Source: Myxococcota bacterium (GTDB lineage: Bacteria; Myxococcota_A; Polyangia; Polyangiales; Polyangiaceae). From it: a stretch of DNA of 64,000 nucleotides. The notes beneath the pieces were generated by a model, which saw only the letters and a program-made list of their open reading frames with translations, searched no databases and was not told the origin of the DNA. Shown here piece by piece: positions 32,482 through 39,307 of the stretch. Where the stretch lies: contig CAUJEM010000112.1 in assembly GCA_963169915.1 (NCBI GenBank), forward strand, positions 1 to 64,000. The letters run 5' to 3'. The translations under genes were made by a program, and so were the position numbers. Every line of letters begins with the position of its first letter. The first letter of the stretch is position 1.

Positions 32482-34197
32482 ATGAGGTCGATGGCGTGGG
32501 CGGTGCTGGGGGCCGCTGGGGTGCTGACGTTCGGGGTGGAGGTCCAGGCGGCGACGCTGGAGCTGCGGTCGGGCGATGATCACACCAAGCTCGAGGCCGC
32601 CGGGCCCGGCGATGAGGTGGTCATCTACCCGGGGACGTATCGGTTCCGGGTGCGCCTCACGCGGCAGGGGACGGCCTCGGCGCCCATCGTCCTTCGCGCG
32701 GCGGACCCTAGCCAGCGGCCCGTCTTCGACCTGTCCGGGCAAGCCGTGGAGGACTGGCCGGGCAGCTACACGGGGGGTGATCGCGGGCGAGGCTGCTGGC
32801 AGGTGACGGGCCGCCACTACCAGCTCAGCGGGCTGGAGATCACCGGCTGCCACACCGGCAGCGGCAACGCCGCGGCGATCCGCGCCGTGGGTGCCGAGGA
32901 TCTCCTCGTCCGCGACGTGCTGCTCCACGGGAACGACGCGGGCTTCACGGGGGATGGCGAGCGCATCACGCTGGAGTTCTCGGAGCTGGCCAGCAACGGG
33001 CGAGTCTCCAATCCACCCCAGCACAACGTGTACATGTACGGTGGCTCGTTCACGCTGCGGCACTGCTACGTCCATGACTCCGTGGGCGGACAGAACCTCC
33101 ACCTGCGCACTCGTCAGGCCACCGTGGTGTACAACTGGATCGCTCGCGCCGCCAACTACGAGGTGGACATGATGACGGGCCCCAGCGCGACGCACGAGCT
33201 GCTGTTTCGCGGCAACCTCCTCTGGGGCCACCCCAGTCCCGGCAATGGGGGGCAGGTGATGGTGCTCTACAATGACGCGGGGCGCTCGGACGTGAGCATG
33301 AGGTTGGAGGCGGTGTGGAACACCTTCGTGCTGCGGGGGAGCAGCCGGCCTGCGCTCGTGCGCGTGCGCAATGACACGATCGCGAGCGCGAGCCTCCGCA
33401 TCGCCAACAACATCGTCGTCGGGACGCGCACGGCCTATGTGCTCGCCGCCGGCAGCGCTGGCAACGTCAGCGTGAGCGGCAGCAACAACTGGTTCGAGAC
33501 GGGGAGCAACGTCGGCGCGCTGACGGGCAGCGTGTTCGGTAGTGAGCCCGGCTTCGTGTCGGGCTCCTCGTTTCGGCTGAGCGCTGGCAGCGCGGCCATC
33601 GGAGCGGCAGCCCAGGGCGTCGACGGCGCTCCGGAGCGAGAGTACTTCGAGGACGAGGCCGTGGCGCGGCGCTTCCGGTGGCGGCGGTCGCAGCGTGACT
33701 TGGGCGCGTTCGAGAGCAGCACGAGCGGTGCATCCTTTGGCGCCTACGAGGCTCCGGGCGGCGCGGGTGGGGGCGGCGGCGCGGGCGGAGGCGGCGCCGG
33801 GGGCGGAGGCGGCGGCGCGGGCCAAGGTGGCGGCGGCGGTCAGAGTGGCGGTGGCGGTCAGAGTGGTGTCGCTGGTCAGAGTGGTGTCGCCGGCACAGGT
33901 CAGGCGGGCGGCGCCGCCGCGGGTGTGGGGGGTGGCGCGGGTAGCGGTGCGGCAGGCGCTTCGGGCTCGGGGAGCACCGAGGACGGCGGCTGCGGCTGTC
34001 AGCTCCAGGGCCGCCGCGGGAGCGCGGGCTGGGCGCTCCTCGGGCTCGTGATGGCGATGCTGGGACGCCGGCGCAGGCGCGCGTCAGCGCTTCGCGGCGC
34101 GCTCGAAGATGAGCACGTACTGCTGCGTCAGGGTAAAGCTCCTGGTGAGCTTCAGCCCCGCCTGCTCCGCGGCGGCGATGACGTCCTGAGCCGGTAG
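32482..34197 (+). CDS. Secreted right-handed beta-helix protein with MYXO-CTERM-like tail
   Basis: A 571-residue protein with an N-terminal signal peptide (about residues 1-23, ending VQA). Residues about 30-415 look like a right-handed parallel beta-helix of the pectate lyase/polysaccharide-binding kind, with repeated turns such as YQLSGLEITGCHTGSGNA and LEFSELASNGRVS. A Gly-rich linker follows (AGGGGGGAGQGG), then a MYXO-CTERM-like segment: DGGCGCQ, the hydrophobic helix WALLGLVMAMLG, then RRRRR. Unusually, the frame continues 37 residues beyond the Arg cluster, antisense to the end of the methyltransferase gene. Polysaccharide binding or cleavage at the cell surface is inferred. Confidence 0.83.
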   Translation: MRSMAWAVLGAAGVLTFGVEVQAATLELRSGDDHTKLEAAGPGDEVVIYPGTYRFRVRLTRQGTASAPIVLRAADPSQRPVFDLSGQAVEDWPGSYTGGDRGRGCWQVTGRHYQLSGLEITGCHTGSGNAAAIRAVGAEDLLVRDVLLHGNDAGFTGDGERITLEFSELASNGRVSNPPQHNVYMYGGSFTLRHCYVHDSVGGQNLHLRTRQATVVYNWIARAANYEVDMMTGPSATHELLFRGNLLWGHPSPGNGGQVMVLYNDAGRSDVSMRLEAVWNTFVLRGSSRPALVRVRNDTIASASLRIANNIVVGTRTAYVLAAGSAGNVSVSGSNNWFETGSNVGALTGSVFGSEPGFVSGSSFRLSAGSAAIGAAAQGVDGAPEREYFEDEAVARRFRWRRSQRDLGAFESSTSGASFGAYEAPGGAGGGGGAGGGGAGGGGGGAGQGGGGGQSGGGGQSGVAGQSGVAGTGQAGGAAAGVGGGAGSGAAGASGSGSTEDGGCGCQLQGRRGSAGWALLGLVMAMLGRRRRRASALRGALEDEHVLLRQGKAPGELQPRLLRGGDDVLSR

Positions 34198-36786: not shown

Positions 36787-38571
36787 ATGTCCTCCATGGT
36801 GAGCAACGTCCTGGTCCTCAACGCCGGCTCCTCCTCCGTGAAGTACCGGCTCATCGACGTGCTCGGGGAGCGTACGTTACGTGAAGGAAAGGTCGAGCGG
36901 ATCGGCGAGGGGCGCACGCACCAGGAGGCGCTCCAGGAGCTGCTCGCCAGCGTCGCGGGCCAGGCCATCGACGCCGTGGGGCACCGGGTGGTGCACGGCG
37001 GCGCCGAGCTGATCGCGCCCACGCTGGTGGACGACGCGCTGGTCGTGAAGCTCGAGCAGCTCAGCCCGCTGGCGCCGCTGCACAACCCGCACAACGTGGC
37101 GGGGTTGCGCGCGGCGCGCGCCGCGCTGCCCCAGGTGCCGCACGTCGCCGTCTTCGACACGGCCTTCTTCTCCACGCTGCCGCGCCGGGCGAGGACCTAC
37201 GCCATCGATCAAGAGCTGGCCCAACGCTACGGCGTCGTGCGCTACGGCTTCCACGGCACCTCGCACGCCTACGTGGCGGAGCTGGCGGCGCGGGCGCTCG
37301 GTCGCCCGCTCACGGAGCTGCGCCTCGTCACCTTGCACCTCGGCAACGGCGCGTCGGCCTGCGCGGTGGAGCACGGCAGCGCCACGGAGACCTCCATGGG
37401 CATGACGCCGCTCGAGGGGCTCGTGATGGGCACGCGCGCCGGCGACGTAGACCCGGGCGCGCTGCTGGCTCTCTTGAGGAGCGGCTTGAGCGTGGACGAG
37501 CTGGAGCAGCTGCTGATGCAGGGCTCGGGGCTCAAGGGGCTGTCCGGCGTGAGCAACGATCTGCGCGACATCCAGGCGCGCGCCGCTGCCGGAGAGGATC
37601 GCGCTCGGCTCGCCATCTCGGTGTTCGCGCACCGCGTGCGCACGTACATCGGCGCCTACGCCGCCACCATGGGGGGCCTGGACGCCGTGGTGCTCACCGG
37701 TGGCATCGGCGAGGGCTCGGCGCAGATGCGGCGGCGCATCCTGCAGCGCTTCGACTACCTCGGCCTCACCCTGGACGACGACCGCAACGACGCGGTGGCG
37801 CTCACGGACGCGGTGCCCAGCGCCCTGCTGAGCACGCGCGCCTCACGGGTGGCGGCCCTCGCCGTCAAGACCAACGAGGAGCTGGCCATCGCGCTGAAGA
37901 CGGCGCGCGTCGTGCGCGGGGAGCAGCGCACCAACACCGCCTCGAGCATCCCCATCGCGGTGAGCGCACGTCACGTCCACCTGAACGAAGAGGCGCTGCG
38001 CGCCCTGTTCGGGCCGGAGCATCGGCTCACCCACCTGAAGGACATCTCACAGCCTGGGCAGTTCGCCTGTGAGGAGCAGGTCAGCGTCATCGGCCCGCGG
38101 GGACGCCTCGATCGAGTGCGGATCTTGGGGCCGCTGCGTCAGCAGACCCAGGTGGAGATCTCCAGGACGGACGAGTTTGCGCTCGGCGTGGACGCGCCCC
38201 TCCGGGACTCTGGCAAGCTCGAGGGCTCGGCGCCCATCACCTTGGAGGGGCCCGCCGGCTCGCTGCACCTGCGTGAGGGGCTCATCTGCGCCAAGCGCCA
38301 CATCCACATGCACCCGAGCGACGCCGAGCACTTCGGGGTGAAGGACGGAGACGAGGTGGAGGTGAAGCTCCAAGGCGGCCCCAGGGATCTCACCTTCGGC
38401 GACGTGCTCATCCGCGTCTCGCCGAGCTATCGGCTCGAGATGCACATCGACACGGACGAGGCCAACGCGGCGGAGCTGGGGCAGGGCGCGGAGGGGACGC
38501 TCGTCTACACGCCGTCCAGCGCCGAGGGCGTCGTCACCTCGCGGCGGCTGCGCCCCTCGGCAGGCGGCTGA
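36787..38571 (+). CDS. Acetate/propionate kinase fused to PduL-type phosphate acyltransferase
   Basis: A 594-residue two-domain protein. Residues 1-385 are an acyl kinase: NAGSSSVKY, AVGHRVVHGG, FHGTSHAYV, TLHLGNGASACAV, TPLEGLVMGTRAGDVDPG and VLTGGIGEGS. From residue 388 the chain becomes a PduL phosphotransacylase: IPIAVSARHVHL (H396, H398), SQPGQFACEEQV, AKRHIHMHP (H505, H507, H509) and LEMHIDTDEANAA, which include the zinc-binding histidines of that family. PduL moves the acyl group from CoA to phosphate; the kinase then makes ATP from acyl phosphate. The two are normally separate proteins, so one chain could channel acetyl or propionyl phosphate. No encapsulation peptide is apparent and no microcompartment genes are near. 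Confidence 0.93.
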   Translation: MSSMVSNVLVLNAGSSSVKYRLIDVLGERTLREGKVERIGEGRTHQEALQELLASVAGQAIDAVGHRVVHGGAELIAPTLVDDALVVKLEQLSPLAPLHNPHNVAGLRAARAALPQVPHVAVFDTAFFSTLPRRARTYAIDQELAQRYGVVRYGFHGTSHAYVAELAARALGRPLTELRLVTLHLGNGASACAVEHGSATETSMGMTPLEGLVMGTRAGDVDPGALLALLRSGLSVDELEQLLMQGSGLKGLSGVSNDLRDIQARAAAGEDRARLAISVFAHRVRTYIGAYAATMGGLDAVVLTGGIGEGSAQMRRRILQRFDYLGLTLDDDRNDAVALTDAVPSALLSTRASRVAALAVKTNEELAIALKTARVVRGEQRTNTASSIPIAVSARHVHLNEEALRALFGPEHRLTHLKDISQPGQFACEEQVSVIGPRGRLDRVRILGPLRQQTQVEISRTDEFALGVDAPLRDSGKLEGSAPITLEGPAGSLHLREGLICAKRHIHMHPSDAEHFGVKDGDEVEVKLQGGPRDLTFGDVLIRVSPSYRLEMHIDTDEANAAELGQGAEGTLVYTPSSAEGVVTSRRLRPSAGG

Positions 38572-38671: not shown

Positions 38672-39307
38672 ATGTCCTCACCCCACCCGGTCTCCGCTCC
38701 CGAGGCCCTCGCGCGTCTGCGTGAAGGCAACTCCCGCTTCATGAAGAACGTCCGCAGCATCGAGGTGCTGGCCAGCCAGTCCAACCGTGAGGCGCTGGTG
38801 CGTGGTCAGGCGCCGTACGCCATGGTGCTCTCCTGCTCGGACTCTCGGGCCCCCTCGGAGCTCATCTTCGACTGCGGGCTCGGGGATTTGTTCGTGGTGC
38901 GGGTGGCCGGCAACATCGTGGCGCCCTCCATCATCGGCAGCATCGAGTACGCGGCGGCCACCTTCGGCACGGAGCTGCTGGTGGTGATGGGGCACTCCGG
39001 CTGTGGCGCCGTGACGGCCACCGTCCAGGCCCTCACGGAGCAGGCCGCGGCGCTGTCACCGGACATCGAGGGGATCATCCGGCGGATCGAGCCCGCGGTG
39101 AGCGAGCTGACGCACCACCTGAGCGGCGCGGAGCTCCTCCAGGCGGCGGTGCGCGCCAACGTGCGCGCCTCCGCGGGGGAGCTGCGCCACGGCAGCCGCA
39201 TCCTCGAGGAGCGGGTCCGCAGCGGGCGGCTGCGGGTGGTGGGCGCTGAGTATCTCTTGGCGACGGGAGAGGTGGACTTCTTCGACCTGCCACCCTCGCT
39301 CGCGTGA
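38672..39307 (+). CDS. Beta-class carbonic anhydrase
   Basis: A 211-residue cytoplasmic enzyme that interconverts CO2 and bicarbonate. Zinc ligands are C55 (in SCSDSRAP), H108 and C111 (GHSGCGAV); D57 and R59 form the family's Asp-Arg catalytic dyad. Length and motif order match bacterial beta-carbonic anhydrases. It follows the acetate kinase fusion by 100 bp, with a candidate hairpin between, and converges on the FG-GAP lipoprotein gene with a 6-bp gap between stops. Confidence 0.95.
   Translation: MSSPHPVSAPEALARLREGNSRFMKNVRSIEVLASQSNREALVRGQAPYAMVLSCSDSRAPSELIFDCGLGDLFVVRVAGNIVAPSIIGSIEYAAATFGTELLVVMGHSGCGAVTATVQALTEQAAALSPDIEGIIRRIEPAVSELTHHLSGAELLQAAVRANVRASAGELRHGSRILEERVRSGRLRVVGAEYLLATGEVDFFDLPPSLA

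Follow-up and report, generated by a model that had tools for sequence, protein, structure and literature searches.

A predicted bifunctional acetate kinase-PduL fusion protein in a member of the Polyangiaceae

A single open reading frame at positions 36787-38571 of the forward strand of the window (the whole stretch of 64,000 nucleotides analysed) codes for a protein of 594 aa, with no internal stop codon, in which an acetate kinase is followed by a PduL-type phosphotransacylase (Table 1). Translation could begin at the ATG at 36787 or at an in-frame ATG at 36796, a choice without effect on the conclusion that the gene is a fusion. The fusion gene is flanked by a gene on the opposite strand that codes for a GGDEF protein and, 100 bases downstream on its own strand, by a carbonic anhydrase gene (Pro_CA, 38672-39307). 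Elsewhere in the window (32482-34197) there is a protein that is rich in glycine and looks secreted; the GCGC motif, hydrophobic stretch and arginine run near its C terminus look like a MYXO-CTERM tail.

Table 1. Features of the fusion gene, in window coordinates.
Feature	Position	Strand	Extent and basis
N-terminal acetate/propionate kinase domain	36787..37911	+	residues about 1-375; PF00871, TIGR00016, 48% identity to 4ijn, catalytic residues
Short linker	37912..37947	+	residues about 376-387; length hardly varies among relatives, pLDDT dip
C-terminal PduL-type phosphotransacylase domain	37948..38508	+	residues about 388-574; PF06130, PRK15070, zinc ligands
Disordered C-terminal tail and stop codon	38509..38571	+	residues 575-594; pLDDT <50 (AlphaFold2)

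The original prediction held that the two enzymes are joined in one chain, and proposed a comparison with the Pfam profiles of both families. Both were matched far above their cut-offs, in one frame: Acetate_kinase (PF00871) at residues 35-369 (E 7.4e-122, 407 bits against a cut-off of 22) and PTAC (PduL, PF06130) at residues 389-564 (E 6.6e-76, 254 bits against a cut-off of 25). The second match spans positions 1-175 of the 176 in the profile, indicating a complete two-barrel PduL domain. The NCBIfam models agree, with ackA (TIGR00016) scoring 389 bits over the kinase part (cut-off 293) and phosphate propanoyltransferase (PRK15070) matching the PduL part above its cut-off. The domain junction lies at IPIAVSARHVHL (residues 388-399), and the predicted passage from kinase to PduL at residue 388, with neither stop nor frame change, is borne out both by the translation and by the junction seen in relatives. 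The GC content of third codon positions is high in the kinase (0.95) and PduL (0.90) parts and similar in neighbouring genes, so that there is no sign of the PduL part being foreign or out of frame.

An AlphaFold2 model of the protein as a monomer, built from 55 fused homologues, contained two well-formed domains (mean pLDDT 87, pTM 0.75) ahead of the disordered tail, with a dip in confidence at the linker (pLDDT 66 in residues 381-390). In Foldseek searches the best structural match of the kinase part was the acetate kinase of Mycobacterium smegmatis (4ijn, 48% identity), and the PduL part matched the PduL of Rhodopseudomonas palustris (5cuo) with an rmsd of 1.5, a TMt of 0.94 and 47% identity.

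Both active sites appear to be complete. Alignment with structurally characterised acetate kinases located the catalytic residues N12, R67, H99, D124, H156, N187, R217 and E364, all nearly invariant in an alignment of 101 fused homologues. We take these to be the equivalents of Asn7, Arg91, His123, Asp148, His180, Asn211, Arg241 and Glu384, whose roles come from the Methanosarcina thermophila enzyme. For PduL, the paper on the R. palustris structure gives His48, His50 and Glu109 as ligands of Zn1, His157, His159 and His204 as ligands of Zn2, and Arg103 and Ser127 as phosphate contacts. These positions correspond in the fusion to H396, H398 and E457, to H505, H507 and H553, and to R451 and S475, respectively. 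Of the residues checked for binding of metal, phosphate or CoA, none is missing; those for metal and phosphate are invariant or nearly so across the 101 homologues, while the CoA-contact position K418 (K70 in R. palustris) is variable. The original prediction had listed the PduL histidines as 396, 398, 505, 507 and 509. The first four do correspond to zinc ligands; His509 is present but is not a ligand, since it matches none in the R. palustris enzyme and is a threonine in about half of the relatives (48 of 101), and the sixth position, H553, had been missed. The broader statement that the motifs of both families are present stands, every catalytic or metal-binding residue checked having been found in both domains.

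The fusion is far from restricted to this genome. A sample of 379 genomes of the source phylum contained 113 with a PduL match, and in about 107 of these the PduL was fused to the kinase (a hand count from listed frames and coordinates that includes G189, where the fusion is split over two contigs). In this sample of the phylum, PduL thus occurs overwhelmingly in the fused form. The six remaining genomes comprise G303, with a full-length stand-alone PduL, G270, with a fragment, and G077, G265, G324 and G333, with weak matches of half length. The best 80 PduL matches in named genomes were fused without exception, although as the nearest relatives of the window sequence they are a biased sample of all PduL. 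They came from Myxococcota, Gammaproteobacteria (Granulosicoccaceae, Spongiibacteraceae and others), Bacteroidota (Saprospiraceae, Lewinellaceae, Raineya), Planctomycetota and Acidobacteriota. In aligned relatives, at 48-66% identity, the junction recurs and the linker is nearly unchanged, exactly 28 residues separating two conserved anchors in 73 of 101. The suggested search of other Myxococcota hence recovered the same fusion, there and in other phyla. What does not survive is the suggestion that the arrangement is unusual, given these counts and its publication in 2016. Fusions were also found in plasmid records of Paracoccus and Polaromonas, with a damaged copy in Sinorhizobium meliloti RU11; on plasmid pSmeRU11d of strain RU11/001 (L134:2798-4595) it is annotated as two genes, with the break inside the PduL part. 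NCBI-derived annotation names such fusions only as 'acetate/propionate family kinase', and the role of PduL in them is hidden by automatic names that give the kinase only.

A separate observation concerns short frames (110-208 aa) whose match to the PduL profile covers only its first half or so (positions 7-82; in G333, 7-111). They were seen at G265:C47:20375-20596, G324:C340:1875-2096, G353:C173:39722-39946, G333:C63:6232-6513 and G077:C61:17891-18112, and may be single-barrel relatives, all within the same class.

In a maximum likelihood tree of 62 kinase domains, all 44 fused forms fell on one side of a branch with support 93/65 that was recovered in 90% of bootstrap trees. Such a grouping fits a single ancient fusion that later spread and was retained through long divergence. 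In the tree of the PduL domain, which is short and has few stand-alone members, the grouping expected from a single origin appeared in 34% of bootstraps, so that this tree speaks neither for nor against such an origin. In the kinase tree the window protein stands next to sequences of MAGs named Labilithrix and Archangium, which points to a myxobacterium as its probable source.

An assembly or frame artefact joining two neighbouring genes is next to inconceivable and can be ruled out, as more than 100 other genomes have the same fused frame and the aligned relatives carry the same junction and a near-identical linker; nothing speaks in its favour, and in the Sinorhizobium plasmid copy annotated as two genes the break is away from the junction. 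That one of the domains is catalytically dead and retained for regulation or scaffolding is very improbable too: we found no point in support, and neither domain has lost any of the catalytic or metal-binding residues examined. A frame error splitting the gene and the loss of key residues from one domain were the two outcomes named beforehand as speaking against the original prediction; the relatives upheld the fused frame, and key residues remain in both parts. Residues and domains together support the predicted bifunctional chain from acyl-CoA to ATP, with both active sites apparently intact.

A way to approach the role of the protein is to ask what else the genome encodes for the same steps. 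In the source assembly (4.19 Mb, 90.7% complete) a single match was found for the kinase and a single one for PduL, both within the fusion gene. The assembly yielded neither a Pta (PF01515) nor a further copy of AckA or PduL; being about 91% complete, it may lack a Pta that the genome has. Phosphoketolase (XFP), as a source of acetyl phosphate, had no match in the source genome either, and a gene for an AMP-forming acetyl-CoA synthetase is present, which provides a second route for acetate activation. Most PF01515 matches in the relatives fell in open frames 750-800 aa long, the length that malic enzymes carrying a Pta-like domain would be expected to have. For this reason a true Pta was counted only where PF01515 scored 399 bits or more, a cut-off picked after inspection of the table. 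Within about 201 genomes of the phylum with a strong kinase match (hand-counted from the listed rows), the fusion was present in 9 of the 45 with a true Pta against 98 of the 156 others (Fisher p 4e-7, shared ancestry ignored). Fusion and true Pta rarely co-occur, a pattern that, as a correlation only, fits PduL replacing Pta. Since the only other member sampled has neither the kinase nor the PduL domain, the genus can do without this gene. Most likely, the fusion is the only phosphotransacylase and acetate kinase of this genome, with PduL in the place of Pta; PduL is here encoded outside microcompartment loci and is apparently the main phosphotransacylase in part of the phylum.

Judging from its sequence, then, the protein is very probably a bifunctional soluble enzyme standing in for separate Pta and AckA. 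For its activity, substrate choice, direction and arrangement we infer the following scheme. The di-zinc PduL domain would interconvert acyl-CoA plus phosphate and acyl phosphate plus CoA, and the kinase domain acyl phosphate plus ADP and carboxylate plus ATP. The output would be ATP synthesis from acetyl-CoA or propionyl-CoA during overflow or at low oxygen, the reverse direction would activate acetate, and the fusion would enforce 1:1 co-localisation of both enzymes.

Whether the acyl phosphate would pass from PduL to the kinase directly, kept off the cytoplasm and so from acetyl-phosphate signalling and protein acetylation, is a more doubtful matter. The model is of a monomer and says nothing on this point, whereas both enzymes are known as oligomers; acetate kinase is a dimer. 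The R. palustris PduL is also a dimer, according to its structure paper. Moreover, co-expression or stoichiometry would be an equally good selective reason for the fusion. Channelling draws on the near-constant length of the linker, on the retention of the fusion across several phyla and on its having been suggested by Erbilgin et al. 2016 (PMC4784909), and on balance we consider it unlikely. The fuller proposal, of a dedicated channelling fusion that replaces the Pta-AckA pair in these lineages and isolates acetyl phosphate from signalling and acetylation, appears somewhat less likely still. If channelling did occur, it would be relevant to the means by which these bacteria keep acetyl-phosphate signalling in check.

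The R. palustris PduL (5cuo/5cup) is a stand-alone protein that was studied as an enzyme of microcompartments; here the PduL part, with all the zinc, phosphate and CoA residues tested, forms the C-terminal part of the fusion with a kinase. No BMC shell family was found by Pfam among ten neighbouring proteins. The fusion protein has no encapsulation peptide and no PduL N-terminal extension, the kinase domain being directly ahead. As far as the surroundings show, the fusion is not microcompartment-associated. Nor was any neighbour gene conserved across phyla at the named loci, only clade-specific partners, for example in Granulosicoccus, so that gene context does not tie the fusion to a pathway.

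The acetate kinases of M. thermophila (1g99/1tuu) and M. smegmatis share fold, catalytic residues and 42-48% identity with the kinase part but, unlike the fusion, are stand-alone enzymes whose usual partner is the unrelated Pta. The closest precedent is in Erbilgin et al. 2016 (PMC4784909), who report multidomain proteins, most of them annotated as Ack, in which PF06130 is joined to acetate kinase; these have the two-part PF06130 signature and no encapsulation peptide, and the replacement of Pta is proposed for them. Compared by description, as the passages concerned name no sequence, no difference from the present protein was identified. No enzymology of a fused acetate kinase-PduL protein was found in the literature searched, in which few subscription journals were covered. 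The same architecture is found in the plasmid fusions of Paracoccus sp. Arc7-R13 (WP_127899590.1) and Polaromonas naphthalenivorans (WP_011798166.1), which differ in occupying a separate, deeper branch of the kinase tree and in their neighbours. In Polaromonas (L135:2081-6475) the fusion is flanked almost without gaps by fabI and a DUF3141 gene, and a phasin gene lies close by in Paracoccus (L133), contexts hinting at a link to polyhydroxyalkanoate or low-oxygen metabolism.
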